DNA of 43,209 nucleotides from Flavobacteriales bacterium (lineage in GTDB: Bacteria > Bacteroidota > Bacteroidia > Flavobacteriales_D > Sanyastnellaceae), in assembly GCA_029238785.1 (NCBI GenBank), contig JAQWFN010000079.1, positions 1 to 43,209 on the forward strand, read 5' to 3'. The notes under the pieces are model-generated. The model was not told where the DNA came from, searched no databases, and was given only the letters and a program-made list of their open reading frames with translations. The position numbers were made by a program, and so were the translations under genes. Shown here in pieces: positions 2,106-43,209 of the stretch (position 1 is its first letter; every line of letters begins with the position of its first letter).

Positions 2106-2149
2106 AAAGATGTAAATTGTGCTCTTGTGACTTAACCAAAATTACACAA

Positions 2150-5100
2150 ATGAAGCATACTCTATCTTTGATAGGTCTAATGATAGGCCTTTTCTGCGGT
2201 GTTGAAACTTACGCTCAAAACGCAATTGAACTTAACTTAAGCACCGACTGTTGGGGTGGCGAGGTGAGTTGGAATATAACAGACAACAACGGAACTCAAG
2301 TTGCCAGTTCAGCGGGAACCACTTATGGGAATTCTCAGACCTACCTTATACCTTTAGATCTTCCAAACGGATGTTATTCATTTAACATTTCAGATTCATA
2401 CGGTGATGGAATGTTTGGTTCTCAATATGGATCTTGTTCTGTTGATGGTAATTACGCTATTCTAGACGCCGCGAGTAATGTTTTGGTTCAAATGACTGCT
2501 CCAAACGCTAACTTTGGCTCTGGAACTTCACATGATTTTGTTCTTCCTATTGATGGAGGGGCTGATGGATGTACTGATCCGCTTGCCCAGAATTATAATT
2601 CCTGCGCCACAAATGATGATGGATCTTGTACTTACGAGCCGGTTGTAGCGAGCTTCAATGTTAACTTAGGTTCCGGTTGTGCAGGAAGTACGTTCGACCT
2701 AGAAGACACTTCAACGGGAACTCCTACGTCATGGTCTTGGGATCTACCGGGGAGCAATATTGGAAGTTCTAGCGAGCAAAACCCAGTACTTTCTTATGCT
2801 ACTGCTGGTGAGTACACCATAACACTTACTGCAACGAACGATAATGGGAGTATTGATGTAAGTAGTCAAACGGTAAGTATTACCGATGGGATGATGATTG
2901 ACATCCAAATCGTGGCAGACAACTACCCTGCTGAAACATCTTGGGAATTGGCGAATGAAGCTGGTGATATTATTGCTAGCGGAGGTTCCACTGGAGGCAG
3001 CTACTGCATCGCTGATGAATGTCACCGCTTTACCATGTACGATACTTTTGGTGACGGAATTTGCTGTCAGTACGGTCAAGGTTCTTTCACCATTTTAATT
3101 GATGGTGTTGAAGTAGCTACAGGAGGTGAATTTGGCGATAGCCAAACGGTGAATGTCAACTGTCCTCCAGGAATTGATTGTAACAACGCGATTGCTATTG
3201 ATCTAGGAGAACACACCACACCTTTTGCAAACACTTGGTACACCTATACACCACCAAATAATGGTCAGTACAGAATCACCACTTGCAACCGCGCTTCTTG
3301 TGATACCAAAATCTGGGTTTACGATTACTGTAACATGCTGTTCTTTGGCGATGGACAAGAGGCTTGGATTACTTACAACGATGATTTTTGTGGTGTTCAA
3401 TCTGAGGTTACCCCAATTCTTTCTGGTGGAGTAACTTATTACTTCAGAGTTGGTGATACAGACAACGCTTGTAATGGTGGTGAAATTGGATTTGCTTTGG
3501 AATACGTAGGGCTTATTCAAGGATGTATGGACCCAACGGCTTGTAACTACTTACCAATTGCAGAAGAACCAGGAGAATGCTTCTTACCAGGAGATCCTGC
3601 GTGTCCTACAATAGGTCCAGATTTGGAAATTCTTGGTGATGTGTTCTACAACTCTATGTACTACACTACCCTCGTGAATAACGATGAGTGCTATATTAAT
3701 GAAGGCTGCATGCAAGGTTTTGGTGAGCGTCAAATTATTCGTTTCAGCACGCACATTAAAAACATTGGTACCGAAGATTACTTCATTGGCGACCCGAACG
3801 ATCAACCTGGTCAGTTCGAGTTTGATGCTTGTCACAACCACTGGCATTATGAAGGTTATGCTGAATATTCTTTGTTTGACGACGCTGGGGCTCAATTGCC
3901 TCAAGTTGGTTTCAAAAACGGTTTCTGTGTTCTTGATTTGGAATGTTCTGATGGTGGAACAGCAAAATACACTTGTGGAAACATGGGGATTACCGCAGGT
4001 TGTGGTGATATTTATTCTTCCGGACTCGCTTGTCAATGGGTTGATGTTACTGATGTAGACCCGGGTACTTATACCTTGGTGATGCGAACCAACTGGGATC
4101 AATCTCCAGACGCCAACGGTAGCTATGAGTTGAGCTATGATAATAACTGGGCGGCTGTATGTTTCTCTTTCGAGAGAGATGCCAATGGCGATGTAATCAA
4201 CTTCCAAAAATTTGCTGATTGTCCTGTTTCTTTTGACTGCCAAGGTGTAGCTTTTGGAAACTCCCAACCCGATTGTGAGGGGAACTGTAATGGTATTGTG
4301 GTGAAAGGTGATGTGGATGGTTCTGGTGACATTGAATCGGGTGATTCCGATGTTTATGTGCAAGACATCCTCGGATCAGACGCAATTGTTAGTCCGTGCA
4401 CGGATATGGACAACGACGGATCAATCACAGTTACCGATGCTGCTTTGATCGCAGGATGTGTATATTACGGTCCGGATTACATCGAGCCAGACGGAGTGCA
4501 CAATCATTGTATTTGGGATGATGAGATCACCAATCCAAACCATACAACAACTTTAAGTGTGGGCGAAATCAATACCGAGTTGTCTTATGTGGACATTCAC
4601 GTTTTGAACCCAGACAATGAAGTGGTTGGTTATGAGTTTGAGGTTTCTGGCATGACCATTTTGAGTGTCGAAAACTTGGCCGACCCAGCAGTTTACGACA
4701 TTGCTCCACAATCATCTTTGGGAGGTTCGAAAGTGATTGGTTTATCTTTTACTGATCAAACCCTTCCTAAAAACCTTACCCCTGTTCCTTTGGTTCGACT
4801 CTATTACTTGAGCTTAACCGCAGAAGAGGTGTGTATTTCTAATATCACTGATGTGGTTAATGAAGACTTCCACAATGTGATTACAGTTATCGGTGGTTGT
4901 CAACTAGCCGCTGCGGCTGATTTTGCTGATTTCACTTCTGATGTGATGAGCGTTTGCCAAGGAGAAAGTGTGAGTTTCTTTGATTTGAGCTCAGGCAATC
5001 CTGATTCATGGAGTTGGAGTTTTGGTGGTGGTACTCCTTCATCAAGCAACGAACAAAACCCCGTGATTACTTACAACGCACCGGGTGTTTACCCTGTTAC

Positions 5101-5554
5101 CTTAACAGCAACGAATTCCACTGGAACTGATAGTGAAACAAAAGTGGCTTACTTAACTGTTGACGCTGCGCAGATGTGGTATTTAGACAGTGACGCTGAT
5201 GGATTTGGTGATGTTAATTTCAGCATGTTTACTTGTGATACTCCTAGTGGTTACGTTTTAAATGCGGACGATTGTGACGATAGCAACGGGGATATGTATC
5301 CAAATGCTCCAGGCACATTCCAAGGCATTGATAACAACTGCGATGGAAATATAGCTGGCGACGAGCTATCACCAACTCCTTGTATGGGAGATTTGAACAA
5401 TGATGGTAATCGCGACATTACGGATCTCTTGATGATTTTACAAGATTTTGGATGTAATCAAGGGTGCAGCAGTGCAGATATGAATGGCGACGGCATTGTG
5501 AACAACAATGACCTTCTGGTATTCCTTCCTGGATTTGGAGTGGACTGCGAGTAA
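2150..5554 (+). CDS. Secreted multidomain protein with lysyl-oxidase-like domain and dockerin-like tail
   Basis: The protein has 1134 residues. ATG 2150 is chosen because a signal peptide (MKHTLSLIGLMIGLFCG...TYAQ) starts there; the frame's earlier start has none. In order: two copies of a roughly 110-residue beta module containing DSYGDGM or DTFGDGI, a Cys/Asp-rich GCTDP unit and a PKD domain between them (PKD about 166-245), a PPC-like region, then a lysyl-oxidase-like domain (about 490-690). That domain has the copper triad H562-x-H564-x-H566, K589 in GFKNGFCVLD and Y622 in DIYSSGLACQWVDVTD, the positions of the two residues that form lysyl tyrosylquinone in animal LOX. Next come dockerin-like calcium loops, a second PKD (about 923-1006), a MopE-like putative metal-binding motif (DSDADGFGD, DDCDDSN, GIDNNCDG) and a final double dockerin-like tail ending DCE-stop. 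No T9SS domain is present. Oxidation of lysine side chains outside the cell is the likely activity, but this is inference. Confidence 0.88.
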   Translation: MKHTLSLIGLMIGLFCGVETYAQNAIELNLSTDCWGGEVSWNITDNNGTQVASSAGTTYGNSQTYLIPLDLPNGCYSFNISDSYGDGMFGSQYGSCSVDGNYAILDAASNVLVQMTAPNANFGSGTSHDFVLPIDGGADGCTDPLAQNYNSCATNDDGSCTYEPVVASFNVNLGSGCAGSTFDLEDTSTGTPTSWSWDLPGSNIGSSSEQNPVLSYATAGEYTITLTATNDNGSIDVSSQTVSITDGMMIDIQIVADNYPAETSWELANEAGDIIASGGSTGGSYCIADECHRFTMYDTFGDGICCQYGQGSFTILIDGVEVATGGEFGDSQTVNVNCPPGIDCNNAIAIDLGEHTTPFANTWYTYTPPNNGQYRITTCNRASCDTKIWVYDYCNMLFFGDGQEAWITYNDDFCGVQSEVTPILSGGVTYYFRVGDTDNACNGGEIGFALEYVGLIQGCMDPTACNYLPIAEEPGECFLPGDPACPTIGPDLEILGDVFYNSMYYTTLVNNDECYINEGCMQGFGERQIIRFSTHIKNIGTEDYFIGDPNDQPGQFEFDACHNHWHYEGYAEYSLFDDAGAQLPQVGFKNGFCVLDLECSDGGTAKYTCGNMGITAGCGDIYSSGLACQWVDVTDVDPGTYTLVMRTNWDQSPDANGSYELSYDNNWAAVCFSFERDANGDVINFQKFADCPVSFDCQGVAFGNSQPDCEGNCNGIVVKGDVDGSGDIESGDSDVYVQDILGSDAIVSPCTDMDNDGSITVTDAALIAGCVYYGPDYIEPDGVHNHCIWDDEITNPNHTTTLSVGEINTELSYVDIHVLNPDNEVVGYEFEVSGMTILSVENLADPAVYDIAPQSSLGGSKVIGLSFTDQTLPKNLTPVPLVRLYYLSLTAEEVCISNITDVVNEDFHNVITVIGGCQLAAAADFADFTSDVMSVCQGESVSFFDLSSGNPDSWSWSFGGGTPSSSNEQNPVITYNAPGVYPVTLTATNSTGTDSETKVAYLTVDAAQMWYLDSDADGFGDVNFSMFTCDTPSGYVLNADDCDDSNGDMYPNAPGTFQGIDNNCDGNIAGDELSPTPCMGDLNNDGNRDITDLLMILQDFGCNQGCSSADMNGDGIVNNNDLLVFLPGFGVDCE

Positions 5555-10787: not shown

Positions 10788-10830
10788 CAGCTCGTTAAAG
10801 GTAAAAGAGGCCTTAGCGAGCTGTTTTTTT
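10788..10830 (+). terminator. Rho-independent terminator after icmF
   Basis: CAGCTCGTTAA (10788-10798) pairs with TTAGCGAGCTG (10813-10823) with one G-T wobble, then seven T residues. The T-run overlaps the stop codon of the convergent transporter gene. Confidence 0.85.
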
Positions 10831-11797: not shown

Positions 11798-14700
11798 CTA
11801 TCGAATAACAGTAATGTGTCCGTCGATAACCTTTTCTTCAATTTCATGCACCGGTTTCACTTTCAATTTGAACATGAAAATTTCATCACCGATATAATAT
11901 TCTCCACCTTGGAATGAGCCGTTCCATGCTTCCATTGGGTCTGTGCTATGAAAGACCACTTCTCCCCATCTATTGAAGATCATGAGCTCGTACTTATCTA
12001 CATCATAGCTTCTACCAATAGGCAAGAACACGTCGTTTTTACCATCGTTATTTGGCGTGAAGCTGTTAGGCAAGTACATAGTAAATTCTTCCTGAGCGAA
12101 ATTTGCGATGATGGTATCGTTCTCCATAATCGTATACACTACGCTAGGGTCTTGATTTGAAGGAACTGCGTTGTGATTTCTCGCTTCCCATGTATCGAAA
12201 GTATAGTAATCTCGTGGGTAGGCGTTAAAATCAAATGGAATTCCACCTTCAACGGTTGCTGTCCATTCGTCGTTCACTATTGTTCCATCGTCAAGAACAA
12301 CGTATCCCGACAAGGGTGGAAAGATCTGAACCGTCAAGTCAAAGTGAGGGATTTCGTCATACACCGCCACAATTTCATCTGTGCTTGAAAGGTTGATGAT
12401 CATGTCGGCAGTAAACTCATCTGGAGTAAGTACATGGTTGTTGACTTCCCAGTGTGAGAAAGCGTACCAAATATCACTTGCCATAGTTACAAAGTTCCAG
12501 TCGATACCGCCTTCAAGTTCGCCCGTCCATGGATAGCTTGCCATTGGGGTTCCGTCTAATTCAATTGTTCCGGCACCTGCAGGTTGAACATCAACCGTTA
12601 CTGTATAGTGTTCGATCGCTGTAAATACAGCAACTACGGTATCCGTTTGAGACACAAAAATTTCAGCAGGAAGCGCAAATTCATCTGGCGTAGGGTCGGC
12701 ATTTAAGATTTCCCAGTGATCGAAAACAAACCATTGGTTGCTAGGAACTACATCTAAGTTGTGCGTTCCTGGGTCTACCAATAGGGTGTTTGGGTAAGGT
12801 CCCATAATGTCACCGTCCATCAAGATATCTCCTGCACCTGCCGGTTGAACATCGAACATCACCATTTGGGGATCGAGGTTTTCAGCGAAGTGAGCGATGA
12901 GCACCACGTCTCCATCAATAATGATTTCTTGATTAGGATCGTTTGGGTCTGGGAAAATAACATTTCCACTTTGCACTTCCCAGAACAAGAACACGCCTAG
13001 ATCAGTAGTAGCTTCGAGTGTAATAGGCACATCAATCCAATAGATTCCGTCCCAAGGCGACATATCTTGATTGATGTCTGCTTCATTGATATTCACCTCA
13101 CCAATGCCATCGATAATGATGGTTACCGTAGCCGGTTCAACATCGTAACATTCGGTCATCCCTTCGATGATGTTATCGTTACAGCGGTCTTCAATAAAAT
13201 CGCGCATTTCTTGCACAGCAGCTTCCCAACCTGCGTAAGTACCACCCCAGCGATCAACTTGGCGTTGCATTTCAGGAGCTATTCGTCCGGTCATCTCATC
13301 CAACAAAGCAATCATGTAGTCGCAAGAGAAATAGGTGTTCGACATGGAAGCCCAACGGTTGTAGTACTCTGCTTGGAAATCTGGGTTATCGAGAAGTGCG
13401 TTAAATACCGGCACGTGACCTTGTCCACCAACATCTCCCATACCTTCAGGATCACATGGATCTGCGTTTGGTGAAGTATCTGGAATACCTGTGTAGTTGA
13501 TGTAGTGTCCGAAAGAAGCATCACAATCCCAAAGCGCGTATTTCCAACGTTTGGCTCCTCCGTCTGGGTGTCTTCCCCTCCACCATGCGGTGTTCCAGTT
13601 CAGCCAGTCCATGGACACGATATATGAGTTCAAGATCATGTAATCGATCAAGCTTGTTTGGTTGTACACACTGGTTACGTAGTCGTAGTTTGCGGGGTCC
13701 GACATGTCATTGGTAGTTATAAAATCTACCAAATCATACCAATCATCGCCAGAACCGTATTCTTCCCATGTACCTCCCCAAGTTTTGAGGAAATCCACAA
13801 AGTTTCTTGGTTGATTGTAACGGTCTAGAGTAAAATCAATATCATCCACTTTTTCGCGGTATTCGTAAACACCCCAATACTGACCGTTGATGTAAACAAT
13901 ACAATTTTCGCTCGTTCTTTCATCGAGTTTCATTCCAGAGAGCTCACTGATGGTATGCACGTAGGCATCTCTAATGTGCGCCCCATTTTCAAATGAATAG
14001 TTATCGTTTGCCGCAGCTTTAAAGATGAGACGTTGAAAGTCGTCACGATCAGTAAGGTTGAACAACTGCGCCAAAACCGCCCAATGTTGCCCCATTTGAT
14101 CGCGGGTTACAAAGTCAAAACCACGCTGACCGTATGCATTACTATCATTACCGTGCTCGTTAGAATCACCAGTAGATTCCACCCAAAACGCTCCATTTTC
14201 GTCAAAAAACTCAATGGCAGTTAACTCATCGCCGTTCCATGCCCCATCGTTCAGTGTGTTACCAGCAATATTTACTACCGGAATGGTGTGTTGATCGATA
14301 CCGAAGAAATAAGTATTGGTTAAAATGTTTGATGGAAGAATGATTCCGTCTGCGCTGTAGGCAATAGCTCTTAAAGTTGATGTAGCATTGAGGTTGATTG
14401 GACCAGCATAAACGTTGGAACCGTTTGTTGGACGATCGCCGTTTGTGGTGTAGTAGATCGTTGCTCCTGGTTCTGTTGTATTTAGAGCGACATTAATAGC
14501 AGCTCCATAATATCCTGATTCAATATCTGCTGTTACTTCTTGAGCGTAGGCTGTTCCTGTTGGTCCTCCATTTGCAGCACCTGGACTTGGGTTTGTAAAG
14601 ATCACCCAATCTGCCGCACCGTCTGTTGATCTTCCGTAGGAGTGATTCATTTGGTTTGGTTGGATGTCTGCTATGTACGTAAACTCGCTCAAAACCACCC

Positions 14701-15082
14701 CTGCAGGATCAGCGAAAATCACTGATTCCGGTTTCGTTTGCGTTATTCTGAAACTTGTATTCAGGTATCCGAAAGTCATTGGATCTAACTCATAAAATCC
14801 GGTGCAGATGATCACAAGGTATCCTCCTGCAGGCACAATGTTTCCATTTGGGATTTCGAATTTCTGAGGGTCTGTGGGATCATCTGAGAGAAAGTAACCT
14901 CCAGCGTCAATGGCGGCTCCAGTTGGATTGTAAAGCTCAATCCAATCTTCATACTCATCATCCCAACCCGCACCAACGTTCCAATCGCTGTAATTCGCGG
15001 CTGTAAATTCGTTCAATTGAAGTTGTCCAAAAGTGAGCGATGCCCAACAAATAAGACCAGTGATTAGCAGGATTCTTTTCAT
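11798..15082 (-). CDS. CotH-domain surface protein with T9SS type B sorting domain
   Basis: The protein has 1094 residues. ATG 15082 begins a signal peptide (MKRILLITGLICWASLTFGQ); the upstream in-frame extension has no such feature. In order: lamin-tail-like domain (about 20-150, LQLNEFTAANYSDWN), chitobiase C-terminal-like domain (about 190-270, TIYYTTNGDRPT), CotH kinase-like domain (about 280-650) with YGQRGFDFVTRD, NGQYWGVYEYREKVDD and ALWDCDASFG, then several InlB-B/Listeria-type repeats (VQPAGAG...FDHWE), and a type B gliding-motility C-terminal domain (LPNSFTPNNDGKNDVF...MIFNRWGEVVF). CotH is a spore-coat protein kinase in Bacillus. LTD plus CotH plus chitobiase-like domains recur in secreted Bacteroidota proteins of unknown function. 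Type B domains usually direct T9SS export and surface retention. Kinase activity here is not established. Confidence 0.92.
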   Translation of the reverse strand: MKRILLITGLICWASLTFGQLQLNEFTAANYSDWNVGAGWDDEYEDWIELYNPTGAAIDAGGYFLSDDPTDPQKFEIPNGNIVPAGGYLVIICTGFYELDPMTFGYLNTSFRITQTKPESVIFADPAGVVLSEFTYIADIQPNQMNHSYGRSTDGAADWVIFTNPSPGAANGGPTGTAYAQEVTADIESGYYGAAINVALNTTEPGATIYYTTNGDRPTNGSNVYAGPINLNATSTLRAIAYSADGIILPSNILTNTYFFGIDQHTIPVVNIAGNTLNDGAWNGDELTAIEFFDENGAFWVESTGDSNEHGNDSNAYGQRGFDFVTRDQMGQHWAVLAQLFNLTDRDDFQRLIFKAAANDNYSFENGAHIRDAYVHTISELSGMKLDERTSENCIVYINGQYWGVYEYREKVDDIDFTLDRYNQPRNFVDFLKTWGGTWEEYGSGDDWYDLVDFITTNDMSDPANYDYVTSVYNQTSLIDYMILNSYIVSMDWLNWNTAWWRGRHPDGGAKRWKYALWDCDASFGHYINYTGIPDTSPNADPCDPEGMGDVGGQGHVPVFNALLDNPDFQAEYYNRWASMSNTYFSCDYMIALLDEMTGRIAPEMQRQVDRWGGTYAGWEAAVQEMRDFIEDRCNDNIIEGMTECYDVEPATVTIIIDGIGEVNINEADINQDMSPWDGIYWIDVPITLEATTDLGVFLFWEVQSGNVIFPDPNDPNQEIIIDGDVVLIAHFAENLDPQMVMFDVQPAGAGDILMDGDIMGPYPNTLLVDPGTHNLDVVPSNQWFVFDHWEILNADPTPDEFALPAEIFVSQTDTVVAVFTAIEHYTVTVDVQPAGAGTIELDGTPMASYPWTGELEGGIDWNFVTMASDIWYAFSHWEVNNHVLTPDEFTADMIINLSSTDEIVAVYDEIPHFDLTVQIFPPLSGYVVLDDGTIVNDEWTATVEGGIPFDFNAYPRDYYTFDTWEARNHNAVPSNQDPSVVYTIMENDTIIANFAQEEFTMYLPNSFTPNNDGKNDVFLPIGRSYDVDKYELMIFNRWGEVVFHSTDPMEAWNGSFQGGEYYIGDEIFMFKLKVKPVHEIEEKVIDGHITVIR

Positions 15083-15292
15083 TCTTTTTCGGTTTCGGTA
15101 ATAAGACCAATTCTCTTGTAACAAGGTTGCGTCGGAAAGTAATTTTTCGAACTTCTGCGAGTTCCAGGCGCAAGAAAACGACAACATCAATACAATAAAT
15201 TGTTTAATAACCCTATTTCGGCTTATTAAGGGCACAATATACATTGATAGATTCACATTTTCACGCCGTAGTTTGGGTCTAAATTGGAAAGC

Positions 15293-27770: not shown

Positions 27771-30700
27771 ATGAAGCAATTCCTCCTTCTCACCAGTATA
27801 TTTTTCATCGCTACAGGCCTTGGTTTTTCGCAAGCACCAACTTCTTCTTGTGGTTCGGATCAAGTGATGCAGCGCATGATGGATGCCGATTCTAACTACG
27901 TCAGAAACATCTTCATTCTGAACAAACGTGCCCGTGCTTTAGATAGATTACCGGCCAATGAGCGGAGCAATGAAATCCATACCATTCCGATTGTTTTTCA
28001 CATCATTCATGAAGGAGAAGCTGTAGGTCAAGGTTCAAACTTATCCGATGAGCAAGTCTTGAGTGCACTTACTGCCTTGAATGAGGACTTTAGAAAGATT
28101 CAAGGATCGAATGGAGATGGTGATGGTGCAGACGTAGGGATTGAGTTTTGTTTGGCAAAAAGAACCCCAGAAGGAGATGCTACAAATGGCATTGTTCGCG
28201 TTGATGGCAGCGTGGTTCCAAACTACGCCGAAGAAGGAATTCGCGCATCAGGTGATCAAGGAGCACCTGAACTTGAGGTAAAAGCACTTTCCACTTGGCC
28301 AAGAGAAGACTACCTCAATATTTGGGTAGTGAATGAGATTGAAAACAATGATGCTTTAAACGGCATTCAAGGATATGCTTACTTCCCAATTAATAATCCC
28401 GTAGACGGCGTTGTTATGCTTCATAACGCAGTGGGAACCATTGGGAACATCAAGCCAAATACCGCACTTAATAGAACTTTGAGCCATGAAGTTGGGCACT
28501 ATTTAGGGCTCTACCATACTTTTCACAACACCAACGATTGTGCTGCAGAAGTGAATTGTGAAAGCCAAGGCGATCGTGTTTGCGATACGCCTGTTACCAC
28601 ACTAGCTGTTAGTTGTGCCAATCCTGCTTGCGGTGGAACACAACAAACCGAAAATTACATGGACTACACGGCAGAATCTTGCCGAAACATGTTCACTGAA
28701 GGACAAAAAACAAGAATGAGAAGCACCTTGGAAAATGAGCGTACCTCAATCCTTTCAAGTGCTGGATGTGTTCCTGTAACAGATTACGATCTTGCAATTA
28801 CCGAAATTACCTCACCTACGCAAAGTTCTTGTTACAATGAAATTACACCGCGCGTTAGAATGACCAATTACGGTAATGAAAACATCAGCGCAGCGAGCAT
28901 TACTTATGGCATCGATGGTACTTATGATTTTAGCTTCTCTTGGTCGGGTAACTTGACGAGTGGAAGTTCAATTCTTATCGACCTACCTAGCATTACCAGT
29001 CCGGTAGGAACCCACTTCTTCAATGCACGCACAAACAACCCATCTGGTCAGCCCGACCAAAACGAAAGCAACGATGCGCTTAGCGGAGAATACACCATTG
29101 CTAATGGTGCAACCTTTGATCTCGCGGTTTCTTTAGATTATTTCGGTACAGAAAACACCTGGAGCATTGTTGATGAAAACGGAACCGAAGTGGCAAACGG
29201 CGGACCTTACATCAATAATAATCAAGGACTTGTGATGAACGAATCTGTTTGCCTCAATACCGGCTGTTATACACTATGGTTTTTCGATGTTTATGGTGAT
29301 GGGATGAGTTTCACCAACGGATCTTACACCTTTACTGATGCCGACAACAACATTATCGCCTCCAATTCTGGAAACTTTGGAGATGAAGCCTCACACCCGT
29401 TTTGTGTAGAATTTGAAAACCCTGCTGTTGCACTCCTAGCAGATTTCAGTGCAAGCCAGACGACGATTTGCGCCGGAGCTTCAGTGAACTTCCAAAACGC
29501 TAGTCTTAATGAACCGAGCACCTGGACTTGGAGTTTCCCTGGAGGAAGTCCATCAAGCAGCTCACAAGTCAACCCACAAAACATCACTTACGCCACAGCG
29601 GGCACATACCAAGTTAGCCTCACCGTGAGCAATGACGCAGGTACAGATACAGAAACGAAAACAGCTTTTATTACAGTTGGCTCGGCTCCAAACATTAGTG
29701 TTAATGCGCTTAACCCAAGTTGTGCCGGACTCAATAATGGAAGCATTAGTCTTAGTGGAGTTCCATCTGGAAGCACCGTTTCTTGGAATACAGGAGCAAG
29801 CGGAAACAACTTGAGCGGATTAGCTGCTGGCACCTATACAGCAAACATTAATACCAGTAATGGCTGCACGGCAAGCGTAAATGCAGGTCTTAGCTCTCCA
29901 ACAGCCTTAAATGCAAACCTCAGCGCAAACGCTCCTTCTTGTTTTGGTGAGAATGACGGAAGTATACAAGCCAATGTTAGTGGTGGAACATCACCTTATT
30001 CCTTTAACTGGAGCAATGGTGGCAGCAATAATCAAATCACAAATCTAATTGCTGGAAACTACTCTTGTAATATTAGTGATGCCAACGGCTGTAGCACAAC
30101 ACTGAATCAAGTTTTGAGTGAACCAAATGAGTTGGAAGCCAACTTGAGTGTTTTAAACATCTCTTGTGATGGATCTTTAGGTTCGGCTAGCATTGCTCCA
30201 ATTGGAGGAACACCACCTTACACTGTCTTTTGGAGTACCAACCAATCATCTATGGGAATTGATCAACTTCAAGCAGGTAGCTACACCGTAAGTATTTTTG
30301 ATGCTAATGCCTGTAATACCAGCGAAAGCTTCACTATTGTTGATGGAAACGAATTGAACATCATCCCAAGCATTACGGGCGTTTCTTGTTCTGGTAATAA
30401 CGATGGGGCCATAAGTATCGACATCTACGGCGGAAATGGTAATTACAGCATTTCTTGGTCGAATGGAGGCAACAGCACAAGCATCAACAACCTGAGCGCA
30501 GGAACATATAATGTTAATGTAATTGATGGTAATGGATGTATGGGTGAAGCAAGCTTTGTGGTAGCTCAAAGCAATCCCATCAACATGAGTATTTTTAAGT
30601 CAGACATCTCATGCAACGGCTTAAGTGATGGAGAAGCGCAAGCAAGTATCAGTGGTGGAACACCTCCATATGATTTAACTTGGTCTAACGGCTCCACTAA

Positions 30701-31895
30701 TTCAAGCATCTCCAACCTCAGCGCAGGCAGCTACAACCTTCAAGTGACCGATGCCAATGGCTGCGAGAGCAATGAATCAATCACGATTGTTGAACCAAGT
30801 GTATTGAATGCGTCTATTTCTTTGTTATCGAATGAGACTTGTGTTGGAAACGACGGTTCTCTTGCAGTTAACATCCTTGGAGGAACTCCAGCTTACACCA
30901 TCACTTGGAACACAGGAGCAAACGGAACTACCCTTCTCAACCTTAGTGCAAATACCTACTCTGCAACTATTGTTGATGGTGGTGGCTGTAGCACAAATGC
31001 AAGTGGAACAGTGAATTATGATTGCGTTAATGAACTTCAATCTTCGATGTTGATTGATGAAGATTGTGGAGCCATGGACCTTCAATTGAGTGAATACATC
31101 ACCTGTGAAGCAGTTGAAGGAGCGGAAATGTACCAGTGGAAAGTAGAAAACCTCGCTGCTGGTTTATATAGCGAAAGCTACACGATGGGAAACAATCCGA
31201 ACCTCCTTTTGAGTGAAATTGATGATTTTGAATATGGCATGAATGCACAAGTAAGCATCCGTGTTCAGAAACAAGGAAATTGGTCGGCATACGGCGAAGC
31301 ATGCACCATTGCTACAAGTCAAGATGTTCCAATGAGCTTGCTGTTCAAATCAGACTGTGGTGCCATTTTGGAATTACAAGACCAGTTGAACTGCACTCCT
31401 GTTGCGGGAGCATACGCTTATGAATGGGAAATTTCAAGTGCTGAAGAAAGCGCGATTTACCAGAGCTATGTGAATTTGCTCAATCTTGATCCAAGCATGG
31501 GATTCCTTCCTGGAGGAGAGTACGATGTTCGTGTTCGTGTACAGGTTGGAAATCTTTTTAGCGAATGGAGCAGCGCATGTACCATTAGCTTTGAGAACAC
31601 TTCTGACCTTGAAAATTTAGGTGATAACACCAGTGGATTCCGAATTTATCCTAATCCATCAAATGGAGAAGAAATTTCTTTCGAAATGTGGAACCTTTCA
31701 GGAAGCCTTGACGTAATAGTATTCAAGGTCTTCGATACAGGAGGAAAGTTGATTGAAAACATTCAGCTTTCTCCGATGGGAGCCCCCAAGTTCACCACCA
31801 CCTACCGCTTTGGTCGACGCCTCGCAGCGGGAATGTACTTTGTACAATACCAGCTTGGAAACGACCTCAAAGAGGAGAAGTTGATTGTTAGATGA
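27771..31895 (+). CDS. Secreted M43 metalloprotease with SprB-like repeats and T9SS type A domain
   Basis: The protein has 1374 residues with a signal peptide (MKQFLLLTSIFFIATGLGFSQ). The M43 (pappalysin/cytophagalysin) domain spans about 60-330, with zinc motif SHEVGHYLGLYHTF (H239, E240, H243, H249) and a Met-turn region ENYMDYT. A CARDB-like segment, a DVYGDGM beta module and a PKD domain (about 550-640) follow. Six roughly 70-residue SprB-like repeats come next (GGTSPYSFNWSNG, NLIAGNYSCNISDANGC and similar). The end is a type A sorting domain (FRIYPNPSNGEEISFEMW ... KLIVR). It should be exported by the T9SS and held at the cell surface or released. The protease acts on extracellular proteins; the repeats may serve adhesion. 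Both are inference from family. Confidence 0.94.
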   Translation: MKQFLLLTSIFFIATGLGFSQAPTSSCGSDQVMQRMMDADSNYVRNIFILNKRARALDRLPANERSNEIHTIPIVFHIIHEGEAVGQGSNLSDEQVLSALTALNEDFRKIQGSNGDGDGADVGIEFCLAKRTPEGDATNGIVRVDGSVVPNYAEEGIRASGDQGAPELEVKALSTWPREDYLNIWVVNEIENNDALNGIQGYAYFPINNPVDGVVMLHNAVGTIGNIKPNTALNRTLSHEVGHYLGLYHTFHNTNDCAAEVNCESQGDRVCDTPVTTLAVSCANPACGGTQQTENYMDYTAESCRNMFTEGQKTRMRSTLENERTSILSSAGCVPVTDYDLAITEITSPTQSSCYNEITPRVRMTNYGNENISAASITYGIDGTYDFSFSWSGNLTSGSSILIDLPSITSPVGTHFFNARTNNPSGQPDQNESNDALSGEYTIANGATFDLAVSLDYFGTENTWSIVDENGTEVANGGPYINNNQGLVMNESVCLNTGCYTLWFFDVYGDGMSFTNGSYTFTDADNNIIASNSGNFGDEASHPFCVEFENPAVALLADFSASQTTICAGASVNFQNASLNEPSTWTWSFPGGSPSSSSQVNPQNITYATAGTYQVSLTVSNDAGTDTETKTAFITVGSAPNISVNALNPSCAGLNNGSISLSGVPSGSTVSWNTGASGNNLSGLAAGTYTANINTSNGCTASVNAGLSSPTALNANLSANAPSCFGENDGSIQANVSGGTSPYSFNWSNGGSNNQITNLIAGNYSCNISDANGCSTTLNQVLSEPNELEANLSVLNISCDGSLGSASIAPIGGTPPYTVFWSTNQSSMGIDQLQAGSYTVSIFDANACNTSESFTIVDGNELNIIPSITGVSCSGNNDGAISIDIYGGNGNYSISWSNGGNSTSINNLSAGTYNVNVIDGNGCMGEASFVVAQSNPINMSIFKSDISCNGLSDGEAQASISGGTPPYDLTWSNGSTNSSISNLSAGSYNLQVTDANGCESNESITIVEPSVLNASISLLSNETCVGNDGSLAVNILGGTPAYTITWNTGANGTTLLNLSANTYSATIVDGGGCSTNASGTVNYDCVNELQSSMLIDEDCGAMDLQLSEYITCEAVEGAEMYQWKVENLAAGLYSESYTMGNNPNLLLSEIDDFEYGMNAQVSIRVQKQGNWSAYGEACTIATSQDVPMSLLFKSDCGAILELQDQLNCTPVAGAYAYEWEISSAEESAIYQSYVNLLNLDPSMGFLPGGEYDVRVRVQVGNLFSEWSSACTISFENTSDLENLGDNTSGFRIYPNPSNGEEISFEMWNLSGSLDVIVFKVFDTGGKLIENIQLSPMGAPKFTTTYRFGRRLAAGMYFVQYQLGNDLKEEKLIVR

Positions 31896-37358: not shown

Positions 37359-40300
37359 TCAGTTACATGCTACTCCGTAAAGGCCAAGGAAGATGACCAA
37401 ATCAGCGGCATTCACAAAGCCGTCTAAGTTAAGATCTACTGGACAAGGATTCGCAACGGCGAAGGTACAAGTGCCGTTATCCATGTTTGCTTGGGGGTTG
37501 TAGTTCTCTGCTTGAGGATAGGTACATCCATTTAAAATTGGCGTTGCACAAGAACCATCATCACTTCCTGCGAAAGGATTAAATTCTAGTGTGAAAGGAT
37601 TGGTACAACCGCTGCACGCTTCACAAGCCTCATAGCAAACTACATCGAGAACAAGCGAGGTATTTCCAAGCACCAGTTCTCTATTATTTGAGCCAAAACC
37701 GTTCTCAACCGCGCAAGGTGCTGGTACCAATTCATCTTCACCAAACTCATCGCCGTTTACAAACTTGTAGAAGTAGCTTGTATTGGCATTCAGTTGAACG
37801 CTGTACTCATAGATACCATAGCCCAAGTAGGTCATTGGGGTTGCTGCAGGGTCCCAACTTTGAAAGTTTGCGGTAAGATGAACTCCTTCTGGTGCAAGCG
37901 TCTCATTTGACATATCAACTCTGAAGGTCACCGTTACTTGAGGAGGTACACATGCAGAACAGGTCCCAAAGCACACCAAAGGTTGCACCTGATCGCTTGA
38001 CGCCAGTGTAAGCAGCCTGTTGTTATTCTGAGCGCATGCCCCAGTAAGGCTTTCTGCTTGTGGAGCGGAATTACCATTTATAAAGAGATATTCAAAAGTG
38101 CTTTGTTCTTCTAAGAAGATAGTTGTTTCCCAAATGCTTCCTCCTACATTCGTCAACGGATTGGCTGTTGGATCCCACGCATTGAAATCACCAAAAACAT
38201 AAACTCCGTTTGGGTCAACATTTTCGTTCACCATATCGACGCTAAAGGTGACTGCAAAGCTTGGTGGTGGACAGGCAGCACAAGAGGCAAAACAAACCGC
38301 CTCTAGGTTGATGTCAACTTCCGCTGTAGCCAAGAATCTATTGCCATTTACAGCGCATTCCGCAGGAATAGACTCATCCAGACCAAAGGCATTTCCATTA
38401 ATAAATTTGTACTCAATCGCACTGTTCTGTGGAAGCTCTAAAGTTAGTGTCCAAATCCCAGCTCCTTGATCAATCATCGGGTTTGCCGCAGGATCCCAGC
38501 CTTGAAAACTTCCCGCTAAATGTACTCCATTGACATCAACAACTTGCTCGCTCATGTCTACTTGAAAGGTCACTAAAACTGTTGGAGGATTGCATACAGC
38601 ACAAGATGCGAAGCAGTGCAGAGGAATCGTTTCATCAGCAAAACCAATGGTATAGCTTCTATTGAATGCCCCAAAGCCATCATCAACACCACAGGTAGCA
38701 GGAACACTTTCTTCGTTTAGGAAGTCTGTACCATTGATGTATTTGTATTCAATGCTTGACCCTGCTGGAAGCGTAAGTTCGTAGGTCCAAACACCATTAC
38801 CTTGGTCAGTTAATGCATCAACACCCGTAAGCCAAGGCGTAGGATCTTGAAAACTACCTGCGATATAAACACCATTCGGGTCTACTGTTTCGTTACTCAT
38901 GTCTACTTGAAAAGTCAAGGTAACATCTGGAACGATGCAGGTATTGCAGCTCGAGAAGCAATGTAAGGGCAAGGTTTCATTACTTGTTGGTGCCGTAATC
39001 ACACGATTAAAGCCACCGTTAGCGTCGTCTTCGCCACAGTTTGAAGGCGCCAACTCAAGTCCTGAAAAATCGTTACCGTTAATGTACTTATAAGTATACA
39101 CCTCACCTTGATTAAGCACTAAAGTTGTTGTCCAAATTCCATTCCCTTGATCGGTCAGCGGTTCAGCTGTAGGGTCGAAGCCATTAAACGATCCCGCCAA
39201 GTGAACTCCATTCACAGAAACTAGCTCATCGCTCATATCCACTTGAAAAGTAACTTCAACACTCGTGTCCACACAAGCCGCGCACTCAGCAAAACAAACT
39301 ACAGGTAGCACTTCATCGACACTAGCGAAAACGTGCGTTCTGTTCGAATTTGGCGCGCATGCTAGTGGAAGTTGTTCATCTTCACCCCAAGCATTTCCAT
39401 TGATAAATTTGTATTCGTAGGTATTCAATTCAGCTAAGGTGAGTGTTACCTCGTAAATACCATCTAAATCTGGGTCAAGCATTTCTATACTGCTCGGATC
39501 CCATTGCGCATAAGCTGGGTTGTCGATAGTTCCATCATTGTTAGGGTCTGCGAAGTTCCCTGCCAGGTGCACACCGTTTGGAGAAAGCACTTGTTGGTTC
39601 ATGTCTACTTGAAAAGTAAGATCATAGCGCGTGATGGGAATGCTTACCGACCAAAACGAACTTCCATAATCATTCTGTCCCCCATTAAAGGTATAAGGTG
39701 CAAGCCCCACTACCGTATTTAGTGCATCGTCCCAAACACCAGCACTAAGAGCTACAGAAACATTTGCATTGTTTGCTGTTCCCCATTGCATGTAGTCAAC
39801 TAAGTCGTTAGGGTCGGGGAAATTACTGCTAGAATAAAGTCCAATTTCTCCGTTATCGTCAGTACATCCAGGCCAAGAAAGCGTAAGAACTTGGTTCGGA
39901 GAGAGTTGCAAGCTACCGCTCAATACTGTAATTGTAGACAACTGATTGAACACTGGGAAATTGTTTAAATAGTAGCTGCTCAAGTCGATACTTGCTGTTC
40001 CAAGGTTTTGGATTTGTACTTCTTGGTTGTCTGGATTCACAGAAATAATTCTAGGATCAGCTTGTGGGCTGAAACAAGCAGAACAAGAGTTCCAGCAGAA
40101 CGGACCATAATTTGCGTCTGCTTGAACATCAATTCTTCTATTAAAAAAACCTCCACTGTTGAACACACAGCTTTCGTTACCGTTAAAGTTCTCTTGGTTG
40201 GCTAGATTATCAACAGAAAATTTAAAGTCCTGAACTCCTGCAGGAAGCGTTAGGGTGATATTATAAATGTTGTCGAATTCAGGGTCAGCTAAGACATCGC

Positions 40301-40850
40301 AATTCCCGCAGAACCCGTTCCAGCTTCCACCAATAGCTACATTAGTGAATACGCCTGGGTATTGCGACATGTCTACTTCAAAGGTAATGTCGTAGGAATA
40401 CGTGCAAGAACCATCATCCTCCACAGCGTTAGCGTCGTAATTATCTGCATTAATATCGGTACAAGCGCTTGGAATTGGACAAGTAAAACAAGTTCCAAAG
40501 CACACGGGGTCCAGCACAAGCGCACTTGATGCTGTATTTAGAAATCGATTCCCATTAGATGCACATTCAAAAGGAACTTGTTCATCGTTTCCCCATGCAT
40601 TTCCATTGATGAACTTGTATTCAAAGAAAGCAAGCTCATCCAATTGCAGAATGATTGACCAGATTCCATTTCCAGTATCAGTCAATGGTGTTGCAGCAGG
40701 ATCCCAATTTTGAAAAGACCCTGCGAGATGAACTCCATTCAGGTCGACAGTTGTTTGCGACATGTCTACTTGAAAAGTAACATCAACTGTTTGAGCGCTA
40801 AGACTAAGGCTGAATAAAGCCGCAAGCGCGAGTAGATAAAGCGTTTTCAT
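37359..40850 (-). CDS. Secreted protein of eight tandem CBM20/48-like modules with dockerin-like tail
   Basis: The protein has 1163 residues from ATG 40850, where a signal peptide starts (MKTLYLLALAALFSLSLSAQ). It contains eight modules of about 105-120 residues. A typical module starts VTFQVDMS, continues NGVHLAGSFQGWDP, then GNGIWTLTL, EYKFINGNAFG, a Cys-containing NxNR segment, and ends in C-x3-C-x2-C (for example CFASCAAC). The core resembles starch/glycogen-binding CBM20/CBM48 E-set domains. Module 2 is divergent, and a lamin-tail-like domain lies between modules 2 and 3. One GCTDP-type unit follows module 1 and two follow module 8. The last 30 residues are a dockerin-like half (DLNLDGFVNAADLVIFL) ending in ACN-stop. 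There is no enzyme domain and no T9SS domain. Binding a glycan is the likely role, by inference only. The next gene upstream is a sugar-type MFS transporter. Confidence 0.9.
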   Translation of the reverse strand: MKTLYLLALAALFSLSLSAQTVDVTFQVDMSQTTVDLNGVHLAGSFQNWDPAATPLTDTGNGIWSIILQLDELAFFEYKFINGNAWGNDEQVPFECASNGNRFLNTASSALVLDPVCFGTCFTCPIPSACTDINADNYDANAVEDDGSCTYSYDITFEVDMSQYPGVFTNVAIGGSWNGFCGNCDVLADPEFDNIYNITLTLPAGVQDFKFSVDNLANQENFNGNESCVFNSGGFFNRRIDVQADANYGPFCWNSCSACFSPQADPRIISVNPDNQEVQIQNLGTASIDLSSYYLNNFPVFNQLSTITVLSGSLQLSPNQVLTLSWPGCTDDNGEIGLYSSSNFPDPNDLVDYMQWGTANNANVSVALSAGVWDDALNTVVGLAPYTFNGGQNDYGSSFWSVSIPITRYDLTFQVDMNQQVLSPNGVHLAGNFADPNNDGTIDNPAYAQWDPSSIEMLDPDLDGIYEVTLTLAELNTYEYKFINGNAWGEDEQLPLACAPNSNRTHVFASVDEVLPVVCFAECAACVDTSVEVTFQVDMSDELVSVNGVHLAGSFNGFDPTAEPLTDQGNGIWTTTLVLNQGEVYTYKYINGNDFSGLELAPSNCGEDDANGGFNRVITAPTSNETLPLHCFSSCNTCIVPDVTLTFQVDMSNETVDPNGVYIAGSFQDPTPWLTGVDALTDQGNGVWTYELTLPAGSSIEYKYINGTDFLNEESVPATCGVDDGFGAFNRSYTIGFADETIPLHCFASCAVCNPPTVLVTFQVDMSEQVVDVNGVHLAGSFQGWDPAANPMIDQGAGIWTLTLELPQNSAIEYKFINGNAFGLDESIPAECAVNGNRFLATAEVDINLEAVCFASCAACPPPSFAVTFSVDMVNENVDPNGVYVFGDFNAWDPTANPLTNVGGSIWETTIFLEEQSTFEYLFINGNSAPQAESLTGACAQNNNRLLTLASSDQVQPLVCFGTCSACVPPQVTVTFRVDMSNETLAPEGVHLTANFQSWDPAATPMTYLGYGIYEYSVQLNANTSYFYKFVNGDEFGEDELVPAPCAVENGFGSNNRELVLGNTSLVLDVVCYEACEACSGCTNPFTLEFNPFAGSDDGSCATPILNGCTYPQAENYNPQANMDNGTCTFAVANPCPVDLNLDGFVNAADLVIFLGLYGVACN

Positions 40851-40969
40851 AATGAGTCGTTCAGTTAAAGGCAAACAACTGTGGTTCACCCATTTGAGAA
40901 TAAAAACATACAAAATATAAGTGTCCGAATTACACTTTAAAGCCAAGATTCGACAAGTGCAGGACCTTT

Positions 40970-42418
40970 TTATTCAGTATCTCCTTGGTAAGTAATCGCG
41001 GCTTTATTTACGATAAGCAAATTTGCTAGTGCTGCAATAAGCAGTGAAACTCCAGCGAGGAGCATTGCATTAATTGCTCCTGGCCCGAAAACACCTTCAT
41101 AAATTGGGGTGAGCGCCGTTGCCGCCATGATTTGAGGTATCACAATAAACATATTGAATAGGCCCATATACACTCCCATTTTTTTCGGGTTGATGAAGGA
41201 CGACAGCATCGCATAGGGCATGGATAAAATAGAACCCCATGAGACTCCAATACAGATAAAAGAGAAAATGAGATGTTGTGGGTTTGTGATAAAATACATG
41301 CTTAAGAAACCAACAGCTCCGAGCATGAGACTGAGCATGTGAACATACTTTCTATTGATTCTTCTTTTTGAGGTATATAAAGTAAGCAGCAATGCAAAAG
41401 CCATTGAGCTTAATCCATACATTCCCATATAAGACCCAACCAAATCTGCTGCATTATTAAAGGCTTTATCTTGGTCAACATAGTCAATCGTAGCTGCGAA
41501 GTATTGTGCATTTTCAGCTTGAAAGAATGCAATTGCATCTAAAGACTGCTCATCAAAGCTTTCCATCATTGGTTTTTCTGGTAAGCTTGGTTTTGGCGCT
41601 TTAAAAATATGTTCGGTTAAAGCAGGTGTTGCTAAAGACCACATGGCAAAGAATGCAAACCAAGAAAAAAACTGAACCACTCCCAGTTTTTTCATAGTTA
41701 GTGGCATGTTTCCTATGTTTTTAATCACTTCCATTGAAGCTTTGATCAAGCCGGCATTTTCTTTTTTCTCTCTTTCAAAAGCATCCATGTCTTCTGGAGG
41801 ATATTCATCTGTTGTGAAAACGGTATATAGAATTGAGCCTAAAAACACTACTGCCCCAATAGCAAAGGCAATCTTAACTGATTCAGGTACAACACCTGGT
41901 TCCGCTTCATTACTCACCCCAAACTGATTCACCAACCAAGGCAAATTCGATGCAATGTAAGTTCCAATTCCGATGATTAGGGTCTGCATCACAAAACCGT
42001 AAGAGCGCTGAGAATCGGGCAATTTATCTGCAACCAAGGCTCTAAAAGGCTCCATTGAAATGTTTATCGATGCATCTAGGATCCACAAACTACCAGCGGC
42101 AATCCAAAGTGCCGAACTATGAGGTACAAAGAAGAGGGTTATTGAACTTAAAATTGCTCCAATAAGAAAAAACGGTCTTCTTCTTCCCCATCTAGGATGC
42201 CAAGTATTATCTGAAAGGTGACCAACAATTGGTTGAACTAAGAGTCCGGTTAATGGAGCAGCAATCCATAGCATGGGAATATCGTGTTCATTAGCTCCTA
42301 AGGTTTGGAAGATTCTGCTCATAAACCCGCCTTGCAATGCGAATCCAAACTGAATTCCAAGAAATCCAAAACTCATGTTCCATATCTGGAAAAAACCCAA
42401 TTTCTGCTGCTTTCTCAT
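40970..42418 (-). CDS. MFS transporter, SLC45/GPH-like sugar transporter
   Basis: The protein has 482 residues with about twelve hydrophobic helices. ATG 42418 is chosen because MRKQQKLGFFQIWNMSFGFLG fits the family start. It has WIAAPLTGLLVQPIVGHLSD followed by RWGRRRPFFLIG, the signature loop of SLC45-type sucrose/maltose transporters, DASINISMEPFRALVADKLP and, later, GVSWGSILSMPYAMLS. A periplasmic or cytoplasmic insert of about 60 residues, rich in acidic and aromatic residues, sits between the two halves. Proton-coupled disaccharide uptake is a reasonable prediction. It precedes the eight-module CBM-like gene by 119 nt with no terminator between, so they may be cotranscribed. Confidence 0.88.
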   Translation of the reverse strand: MRKQQKLGFFQIWNMSFGFLGIQFGFALQGGFMSRIFQTLGANEHDIPMLWIAAPLTGLLVQPIVGHLSDNTWHPRWGRRRPFFLIGAILSSITLFFVPHSSALWIAAGSLWILDASINISMEPFRALVADKLPDSQRSYGFVMQTLIIGIGTYIASNLPWLVNQFGVSNEAEPGVVPESVKIAFAIGAVVFLGSILYTVFTTDEYPPEDMDAFEREKKENAGLIKASMEVIKNIGNMPLTMKKLGVVQFFSWFAFFAMWSLATPALTEHIFKAPKPSLPEKPMMESFDEQSLDAIAFFQAENAQYFAATIDYVDQDKAFNNAADLVGSYMGMYGLSSMAFALLLTLYTSKRRINRKYVHMLSLMLGAVGFLSMYFITNPQHLIFSFICIGVSWGSILSMPYAMLSSFINPKKMGVYMGLFNMFIVIPQIMAATALTPIYEGVFGPGAINAMLLAGVSLLIAALANLLIVNKAAITYQGDTE

Positions 42419-42483
42419 GTTCTCATTGTTTGAAGGTGGAAGATAATAAATCAAGTGTAATTACTACACTAACGAAAATTAAT

Positions 42484-42538: not shown

Positions 42539-43209
42539 TTACTCGCAAATCGTTCCAAGAACGGCCAAGAAGATCAAAAGATCGGCAGCATTGATAATTC
42601 CATCTGCGTTGAAATCGCCAGCACATGATGCCGGAGAGAAGTCGCAAGAACCGTCATCAACGTTCGCATAAACATTGTAATTATTGGCAAGAGGGTCTGT
42701 ACATCCAGGTCTTGAGTAAACGCAAGAACCATCATCGATTGTTGCATTCGAATTGTAGTTATCTGCTAAAGGATAAGTACATCCGTTTACTTGACTGAAG
42801 GTACATGAACCATCGTCGTTGTTTGCTGCTGGGTTGTAGTTGTCTGCTAATGGGTTCGTACATCCTGAGATGATACAAGAGCCATCGTCGTTGTTCGCTG
42901 CTGGGTTGTAGTTATCTGCCGCTGCATTCGTACATCCTGAAATCACACAAGAACCATCGTCGTTGTTCGCTGCTGGGTTGTAGTTGTCTGCTGCTGCATT
43001 CGTACATCCTGAGATCACACAAGAACCATCATCGTTGTTCGCTGCTGGGTTGTAGTTGTCTGCCGCTGCATTCGTACATCCTGAAATCACACAAGAGCCA
43101 TCGTCGTTGTTCGCCGCTGGATTGTAGTTATCTGCTGCAGGGTTTGTACATCCTGAAATCACACAAGAGCCATCATCGTTGTTCGCTGCTAGGTTGTAGT
43201 TGTCTGCTA
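42539..43209 (-). CDS. Repeat protein of GCTxP/DDGSC units with dockerin-like tail (N-terminus outside window)
   Basis: The minus strand is open to the right edge at 43209, so the start lies outside. About 223 residues are visible: one partial and seven complete units of about 24 residues (ISGCTNAAADNYNPAANN then DDGSC), each with two Cys and an Asn/Asp-rich stretch. The first units are nearly identical; the last three diverge (GCTYPLADNYNSNATIDDG, GCTDPLANNYNVYANVDDG). It ends with a single dockerin-like half (CAGDFNADGIINAADLLIFL) and ICE-stop. The same units occur in the lysyl-oxidase-like and eight-module proteins. Each Cys pair could form a disulfide, and the Asp/Asn pattern suggests calcium binding; neither is shown. 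These are probably stiff spacer repeats of a surface protein. Nothing can be said about the missing N-terminal part. Confidence 0.87.
   Translation of the reverse strand, partial: ADNYNLAANNDDGSCVISGCTNPAADNYNPAANNDDGSCVISGCTNAAADNYNPAANNDDGSCVISGCTNAAADNYNPAANNDDGSCVISGCTNAAADNYNPAANNDDGSCIISGCTNPLADNYNPAANNDDGSCTFSQVNGCTYPLADNYNSNATIDDGSCVYSRPGCTDPLANNYNVYANVDDGSCDFSPASCAGDFNADGIINAADLLIFLAVLGTICE
42859..43209. repeat. Tandem 72-bp repeats (coding)
   Basis: Nearly identical 72-bp units begin (in the marker sequence TACATCC) at 42859, 42931, 43003, 43075 and 43147, and continue past the edge. Differences between units are few and mostly third-codon changes. They encode the 24-residue units of the gene on the minus strand. 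Confidence 0.9.

Follow-up and report, generated by a model that had tools for sequence, protein, structure and literature searches.

Many predicted exported proteins of the bacterium studied here and of its relatives end in a short Cys-capped tail. It closes the protein and is made up of a dockerin-type EF-hand unit, or at times of two, flanked by Cys on both sides. Since many exported proteins end in this way and some relatives carry a T9SS tag at the same place, we regard the tail as a probable alternative tag for sorting or anchoring at the C-terminus, used in one family of what are probably uncultured Flavobacteriales where others carry a T9SS domain. The tail unit reads C-x-x-D-x-N-x-D-G-x-x-x-x-x-D-L-L-x-F-L-x-x-F-G-x-x-C, after which the stop usually comes within 0-2 residues. 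According to the available excerpts of two papers (PMC10202324, PMC12618676), T9SS domains fall into the types A, B and C, and PorV and PorP/SprF-like proteins act as shuttles.

The window, i.e., the whole stretch of 43,209 nucleotides that was analysed, is an entire contig (C104). It contains three tailed proteins as well as two comparison proteins with a T9SS domain in the C-terminal slot:

2117..5554, plus strand: open reading frame of a predicted exported lysyl-oxidase-like protein (PF01186, 103.9 bits)
5381..5452, plus strand: lysyl-oxidase-like protein, the first of the two Cys-bracketed EF units in its tail
5465..5554, plus strand: lysyl-oxidase-like protein, terminal Cys-bracketed EF unit, CSSADMNGDGIVNNNDLLVFLPGFGVDCE and stop; the last Cys is followed by one residue and the stop
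37359..40946, minus strand: open reading frame of a predicted exported multi-CBM20/48 protein
37359..37445, minus strand: multi-CBM20/48 protein, single-unit Cys-bracketed half-dockerin tail, CPVDLNLDGFVNAADLVIFLGLYGVACN and stop; ends CN, stop
42539..43209, minus strand: GCTDPxAxNY-repeat protein, truncated by the contig end
42539..42625, minus strand: GCTDPxAxNY-repeat protein, single-unit Cys-bracketed half-dockerin tail, CAGDFNADGIINAADLLIFLAVLGTICE and stop; ends CE, stop
11798..15256, minus strand: comparison, CotH-domain protein with a T9SS type B domain in the C-terminal slot (TIGR04131, 43.7 bits, cut-off 35)
27771..31895, plus strand: comparison, M43 peptidase/SprB-repeat protein with a T9SS type A domain in the C-terminal slot (TIGR04183, 39.5 bits, cut-off 23)

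The lysyl-oxidase-like protein likely starts at an ATG around position 2150 with the signal peptide MKHTLSLIGLMIGLFCGVETYAQ, and its upstream and terminal units together provide four Cys in the tail. For the multi-CBM20/48 protein the likely start is around 40850 (signal peptide MKTLYLLALAALFSLSLSAQ), and the N-terminus of the GCTDPxAxNY-repeat protein lies outside the contig. An earlier note on this DNA had claimed that the three proteins share one Cys-capped terminal pattern, that they lack a T9SS domain and that a type A or B domain is present instead in other large exported proteins of the window. All three tails indeed read as described, the T9SS type A, B and C models have no match to the three tail proteins at E up to 1, and the two comparison proteins score above the cut-offs of the type A and type B models.

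Ahead of its tail (42626-43207, minus strand), the truncated protein is built of GCT-D-x-x-A-x-N-Y...DDGSC repeats with their own Cys pair each. Such repeats are present in many tail proteins, and no Pfam family scores over its cut-off for the repeat protein of the window. A gene for an MFS transporter (40970-42454, minus strand) lies between two of the tail genes and has no visible tie to the tail. The type B protein (11798-15256) resembles an 'orphan' type B protein because an EamA transporter gene (10829-11686, minus strand) and not a PorP/SprF-like shuttle is located downstream.

The position of the tail is nearly invariant. Distinct tails across the loci, with the phylum of a record labelled Rhodopirellula left out, comprise 199 terminal cases, two internal ones and one that runs off its piece. 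Both Cys are present in 199/199 terminal tails with a spacing of 26 in 185 of them, and in 194/199 the stop follows the last Cys after 0-2 residues; the final residue is most often E (79/199). The one-unit form accounts for 167 of the 199 tails, and the two-unit tails (28 aligned) contain four Cys. In the 185 tails with spacing 26, the Ca2+ loop has D at positions 1 and 12 in every case and D at position 5 in 177. All 130 open reading frames with a tail match of at least 20 bits in the window and 80 loci end at most nine residues past the match, and the DNA patterns behind the 80 loci did not require a stop. This terminal position rules out chance or internal matches as an explanation. Because the tail profile was built from capped tails, it could overlook relatives that lack the caps; of the terminal matches under the threshold, the best three have both Cys caps too. 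The tails are also clustered by kinship, as 91 of 181 comparable bodies fall into one cluster and 38 into another.

The two internal cases differ from each other. In L230 (G006:C31), the sole internal capped tail seen in the family, an esterase-like stretch can be read by eye behind the tail. In L219, the segment is uncapped and, again by eye, a type A-like end follows. The earlier note had asked whether hits of a profile made from the three tails are always C-terminal; with 199 terminal tails and these two internal ones, they nearly always are.

A profile of the three window tails yields 36 matches at E up to 10 in the whole genome of the bacterium. Of these, 31 fall in 23 proteins, all of which end 0-5 residues after the last Cys. 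The five other matches are weak (E 0.066 to 1.8): two are inside a cohesin protein on contig C40 and the others are on C76, C89 and C29. Two-unit tails are found in nine of the 23 proteins and single-unit tails in 14, so that one unit is more frequent than two, a point that goes beyond the earlier note. One tail match (L281, G000:C119:5739-5822) belongs to a 46-residue frame that lacks any visible body, for which a broken gene, a frameshift or an assembly fault is possible.

The bodies ahead of the tail are diverse. We take this variety from the bacterium's own genome because clustering of bodies by BLAST is skewed by shared repeats and by the bias of the A3 query. Pfam recognises lysyl oxidase, CBM48/20 arrays, GH16, peptidyl-arginine deiminase, trypsin-like and subtilisin-like peptidases, glucose/sorbosone dehydrogenase, lamin-tail domains, LVIVD repeats and endonuclease I, and 9/19 own-genome tail proteins scanned have no Pfam match at E 1e-4. 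According to a simple rule, a signal-peptide-like start is present in 15/19 own tail reading frames with an upstream stop, and the four misses include two with a hydrophobic leader by eye and one 46-residue frame. By this one rule, 79/100 tail reading frames (130 before those without an upstream stop were dropped) have such a start compared with 59/358 other reading frames, the latter including non-genes. Inspection by eye shows a leader in many of the 21 tail reading frames that the rule misses; two of the 21 are masked. Judged by these starts, the tail proteins are likely exported. The earlier note had asked whether a signal peptide is always present; the rule finds such a start in 79 of the 100 and fails to find it in 21.

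As sampled, the tail is restricted to one family. All 37 sampled genomes of this family, the bacterium's own included, match the tail profile at E 0.001 with 1 to at least 112 matches each, and two of 23 genomes from other families of the order match it, once each. In these counts a two-unit tail can count twice, and the values for G006, G007, G013, G026 and G032, with 138 candidates scored, are lower bounds. We call genomes with fewer than 15 matches tail-poor (13 genomes of the family) and those with at least 27 tail-rich (24 genomes); no genome of the family is in between. In a draw across the phylum, 4/395 genomes match the tail at E 1e-4. Two of the four belong to the family, one (G044) is from another family of the order and has one terminal tail, and one has an internal uncapped match before a type A-like end. 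A scan of named genomes yielded 137 stretches; among 80 of these, the titles are nearly all of Flavobacteriales, Bacteroidetes, Bacteroidia, Crocinitomicaceae or Cryomorphaceae MAGs. Four loci (L130, L091, L085, L102) stem from records labelled Rhodopirellula, Euryarchaeota and Chryseobacterium gleum. These tail loci are Flavobacteriales-like and perhaps represent misbinned or mislabelled contigs.

The relation of the tail to dockerins is suggested by both sequence and predicted fold. The tail profile finds dockerins (PF00404) by sequence with a best E of 5.3e-10. The two-unit tail is predicted with a pLDDT of 92.2, and its best PDB match is the dockerin 2y3n_B (TM 0.88, rmsd 0.9), with a weak Foldseek E-value (1.4e-3) for this short chain. 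In the model of a single unit together with the repeat before it, there is one helix and the end is poor, the last three residues having a pLDDT <50. Against PF00404, the two-unit form scores 35.7 bits (cut-off 22.9), with two F-hand repeats and the predicted dockerin fold, and the half form of the CBM protein scores 13.3 bits, which is under the cut-off. The description of the tail as dockerin-like in the earlier note suits the two-unit form, by its predicted fold and its nearness to the GC-type dockerin. Dockerin type I and the tail have the Ca2+ loop and, for the two-unit form, the two-helix fold in common. In contrast to dockerin type I, the tail is often a single repeat, is Cys-bracketed and has no matching set of PF00963 cohesins.

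The GC-type dockerin (NF041540, C-terminal, 67 positions) resembles the tail in its terminal dockerin repeats, the Cys before the first Ca2+ loop and the many copies in some genomes, and in both the last Cys is 0-2 residues from the stop. NF041540 matches 8/9 own two-unit tails at E 0.001, and two of these eight reach the cut-off of 29 (30.6 and 29.9). The score of the two-unit tail of the window is 23.9 bits for the whole protein, 30.6 in the scan of the genome and 29.1 for a 110-residue piece, and a profile comparison of NF041540 with the window two-unit type gives 97.7% probability. At E up to 1, NF041540 does not match the two window half tails.

In the phylum of the Rhodopirellula-labelled record, NF041540 matches 11 of 199 genomes, five of them over the cut-off. 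Four of the 199 genomes have at least 28 scored matches each and 135-223 first-look candidates. Of 21 GC-type tails read, 16, all from these four abundant genomes, end with Gly-Cys and 0-2 residues and contain two Cys, 53 residues apart, around two EF units. This Cys plan is taken from the 16 aligned tails and not from the NF041540 documentation; five GC-type tails from other genomes are without the plan of one Cys pair. Unlike NF041540, the tail described here has a Cys pair per unit (four Cys if two-unit) rather than one pair round two units, its single-unit form is unmatched by the model, and the genomes of the host family also have a T9SS. Thus, fold and position make the window tail type a relative of the GC-type dockerin, and descent perhaps does so too. 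As the GC-type tail is abundant in some genomes of another phylum and the T9SS is described as a system of the FCB superphylum in the accessible part of PMC11205867, the GC-type tail need not be a T9SS signal. In the open-licence literature, no paper was found on the GC-type dockerin or on dockerins and PEP-CTERM, and the titles and abstract beginnings of that literature on T9SS and dockerins contain no description of such a tail.

T9SS type A (TIGR04183), type B (TIGR04131) and type C (ChiA) domains have the slot in common with the tail and carry similar cargo. Dockerins are alpha-helical. The tail differs from the T9SS domains by an EF-hand rather than an Ig-like fold (type A domains being Ig-like according to an excerpt of PMC12618676), by a length of ~28 or 55-60 residues compared with ~70-90, and by its two or four Cys. 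The difference in fold speaks against the tail as a tag used in place of these domains.

Relatives that carry either tag allow a direct comparison of the C-terminal slot. In the lysyl oxidase survey, 111 of 249 genomes of the order have a match, and 71 pieces provided 59 ends from 53 genomes after lysyl oxidases with open, masked or duplicate ends were dropped. In the endonuclease I survey, 44 of 60 genomes have a match, and 51 pieces provided 49 ends from 42 genomes, again with open ends dropped. Added regions (40 from 36 genomes, and 20 for endonuclease I) were picked for genus spread and not at random. The end labels were set by hand, and a pattern rule reproduces the totals with two endonuclease I ends classed as neither by hand.

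The lysyl oxidase ends divide into 16 tails and 43 type A-like ends, and TIGR04183 matches 42 of the 59, known as a total and not per member. Endonuclease I has 19 tails, 28 type A-like ends and two ends of neither kind; here TIGR04183 matches 27 of the 49, likewise as a total and not per member. All 35 tails in both protein families (16 and 19) come from the host family. Lysyl oxidase tails make up 0/13 ends outside the family, 0/10 in tail-poor and 13/21 in tail-rich family genomes, and 3/15 in family genomes without a tail count. The corresponding values for endonuclease I are 0/16 outside the family, 1/12 in tail-poor and 18/21 in tail-rich genomes, a contrast that is mostly one between subfamilies because the tail-poor type A proteins sit in another subgroup. 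Lysyl oxidases of both kinds occur together in four genomes (G003, G011, G026, G030), at a distance of ~6-8 kb in G011 and G030. The earlier note had expected the tail and TIGR04183 to exclude each other, and the proteins read agree with this, relatives having one tag or the other in the common slot.

In a quick tree of the oxidase domain, calculated without bootstrap, the tail and type A states need three changes, at least two of which are forced by well-supported branches, and a group of five tailed proteins is nested in a well-supported group whose other members are all type A. The endonuclease I tree, of the same quick kind without bootstrap and flagged for long branches meeting, needs two changes, at least one of them forced. 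All 19 endonuclease I tails are in one subgroup of 21 proteins, and the other two are type A and from outside the family. By eye, five endonuclease I tails are two-unit and 14 single; therefore, both forms replace each other. The genome counts are not independent because the trees show few changes. Replacement between T9SS domain and tail is real in both protein families and rests on few events. The trees themselves give no direction, and the type A domains outside the family suggest that the tail came later.

T9SS type A domains persist alongside the tail, with at least 32 matches in every genome of the family, tail-rich ones included; in some small tail-rich genomes they are less dense. Based on loose first-look counts, the densities of tail and T9SS type A domains are weakly opposed across the 37 family genomes (Spearman -0.31, p 0.06). 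For the 18 genomes of at most 2.6 Mb, the value is -0.62 (p 0.006), with a cut chosen post hoc and kinship uncorrected.

These replacements might alternatively mean that Ca2+ and a disulphide merely stabilise the C-terminus of proteins that have lost their T9SS domain, so that the tail has no sorting role and the proteins stay periplasmic or leave the cell otherwise. The few replacements of a T9SS domain by the tail that the trees need, in two protein families, would agree with such a structural cap. The same is true of the Cys-bracketed GCT...DDGSC repeat that lies within ~75 residues ahead of 54/167 single tails, where the tail looks like the last module of a Ca2+-binding stalk. However, a plain cap would be expected internally or ahead of a T9SS domain too, whereas the tail is attached to many kinds of bodies and is nearly always last, only 2/201 closed cases being internal. 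Moreover, the two tags were swapped more than once on the trees. We thus consider a purely structural cap unlikely.

A second alternative, also raised in the earlier note as a cohesin-binding tag, is that the tails dock enzymes on a cohesin scaffold in a cellulosome-like or 'planctosome'-like assembly. The two-unit tail qualifies as a dockerin by predicted fold and sequence, and freshwater Planctomycetes have been proposed to have a cohesin/dockerin 'planctosome', as stated in the part of PMC6461901 that was available. In addition, two cohesin proteins are linked to tails. The only PF00963 match of the bacterium's own genome (29.4 bits, cut-off 24.1) is the protein on contig C40 (L031:1165-4179, minus strand). 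It has a Ca2+ loop motif as in the tail but, like L219, has it in an internal uncapped dockerin-like segment with, as read by eye, a type A-like end after it. The adjoining gene (L031:360-773, minus strand) encodes a 137-residue protein with a two-unit Cys tail, the body of which (..WTFGEAVINSF..LTCGFHQG) presumably resembles small proteins that usually have a type A domain. In G010:C45, a cohesin protein (L063:436-2439, minus strand) itself ends in a two-unit Cys-capped tail and is a possible adaptor. Against a cohesin scaffold, PF00963 was found in just 5/37 family genomes (one of them under the cut-off) and in 4/23 genomes outside, with no co-occurrence with tails. It is absent from the seven genomes with at least 71 tail matches (G006, G007, G011, G013, G022, G026, G032). 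Furthermore, the single unit is the commoner form, while classical dockerins have two repeats. Docking on a cohesin is thus improbable and rates below the structural cap.

Other partners were searched for as well. The earlier note had suggested a dedicated processing enzyme that co-occurs with the tail; neither such an enzyme nor a shuttle emerged from the searches made. The genomes own a T9SS, which the earlier note had not included: the PorV family is present in 60/60 genomes, with 2-7 copies in the family and 2-8 overall. An extra PorV copy as the shuttle was rejected since the copy number is not raised in tail-rich genomes. PorP/SprF-like reading frames beside tail genes amount to 0 in 97 tail-bearing pieces, some of the own pieces being short; the control recovered 12/12, four of which built the model, and divergent members could be missed. 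Among the neighbours of tail genes, no recurrent one was recognised, and the top clusters, for which 80/81 pieces stem from a single query and many pieces are kin, look by eye like housekeeping or antisense frames. Four family genomes and two others have a single match, and a dedicated machine is therefore not suggested.

In eight tail-rich genomes, a tail gene is located ~11-15 kb from porV. A link to a T9SS locus was considered and dropped, because the neighbours of the large tail gene are not T9SS-like and the porU-porV-porP/sprF block occurs in tail-poor genomes as well. This reading covered the porV region of six tail-rich, four tail-poor and two outside genomes. We assigned porV by family search; the other names of the block are putative and follow gene position.

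Taken together, the tag role proposed in the earlier note retains the terminal position, the varied and mostly exported bodies and the slot shared with T9SS domains, and loses the cohesin partner and the processing enzyme. For a sorting or anchoring tag, we propose the following route. A tail protein would leave the cytoplasm through Sec. Under the oxidising conditions of the periplasm, a disulphide would lock the EF unit with its bound Ca2+, either within the unit or, in the two-unit form, head to tail as in dockerin clasps. The rigid tail end might then be recognised by a putative outer-membrane or surface receptor, most likely a part or partner of the T9SS, which would take the protein to the surface or the medium. 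According to an excerpt of PMC4728124, dockerins can clasp head to tail, and by analogy such a clasp would fit a disulphide between the first and the last Cys of the two-unit form. The similar Cys spacing in each unit would fit a disulphide within the unit.

A half-dockerin is half of a pseudo-symmetric pair. Such halves could pair across proteins, or with the two-unit form on another protein, and swap disulphides to yield covalent dimers or a surface mesh, which the head-to-tail clasp of dockerins and the Cys kept at both ends of each half (199/199) would permit; still, the Cys spacing within the unit is equally consistent with an internal disulphide, and we regard pairing in trans as very unlikely.

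Returning to the tail as a sorting or anchoring tag, a more specific version is possible but tentative: the T9SS or a parallel outer-membrane route may accept a Ca2+/disulphide-locked half-dockerin, and a Cys-closed dockerin end may also be used on many proteins by some members of another phylum. If this applies, Cys-capped dockerins would serve beyond cellulosomes as a general tag for sorting to the outer surface. Neither of the two window half tails reaches the cut-off of any T9SS or two-repeat dockerin model. Provided that the tail is a sorting tag, inventories of secreted proteins in this family that are based on T9SS domains or two-repeat dockerins would hence miss tail proteins. The tail would then also be a tag of 28 residues that depends on Cys and Ca2+, and the term 'dockerin' would be separated from 'cohesin partner'. 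Finally, the relatives that have either tag are natural pairs, which lead to the question of what reads the C-terminus of T9SS-type cargo.
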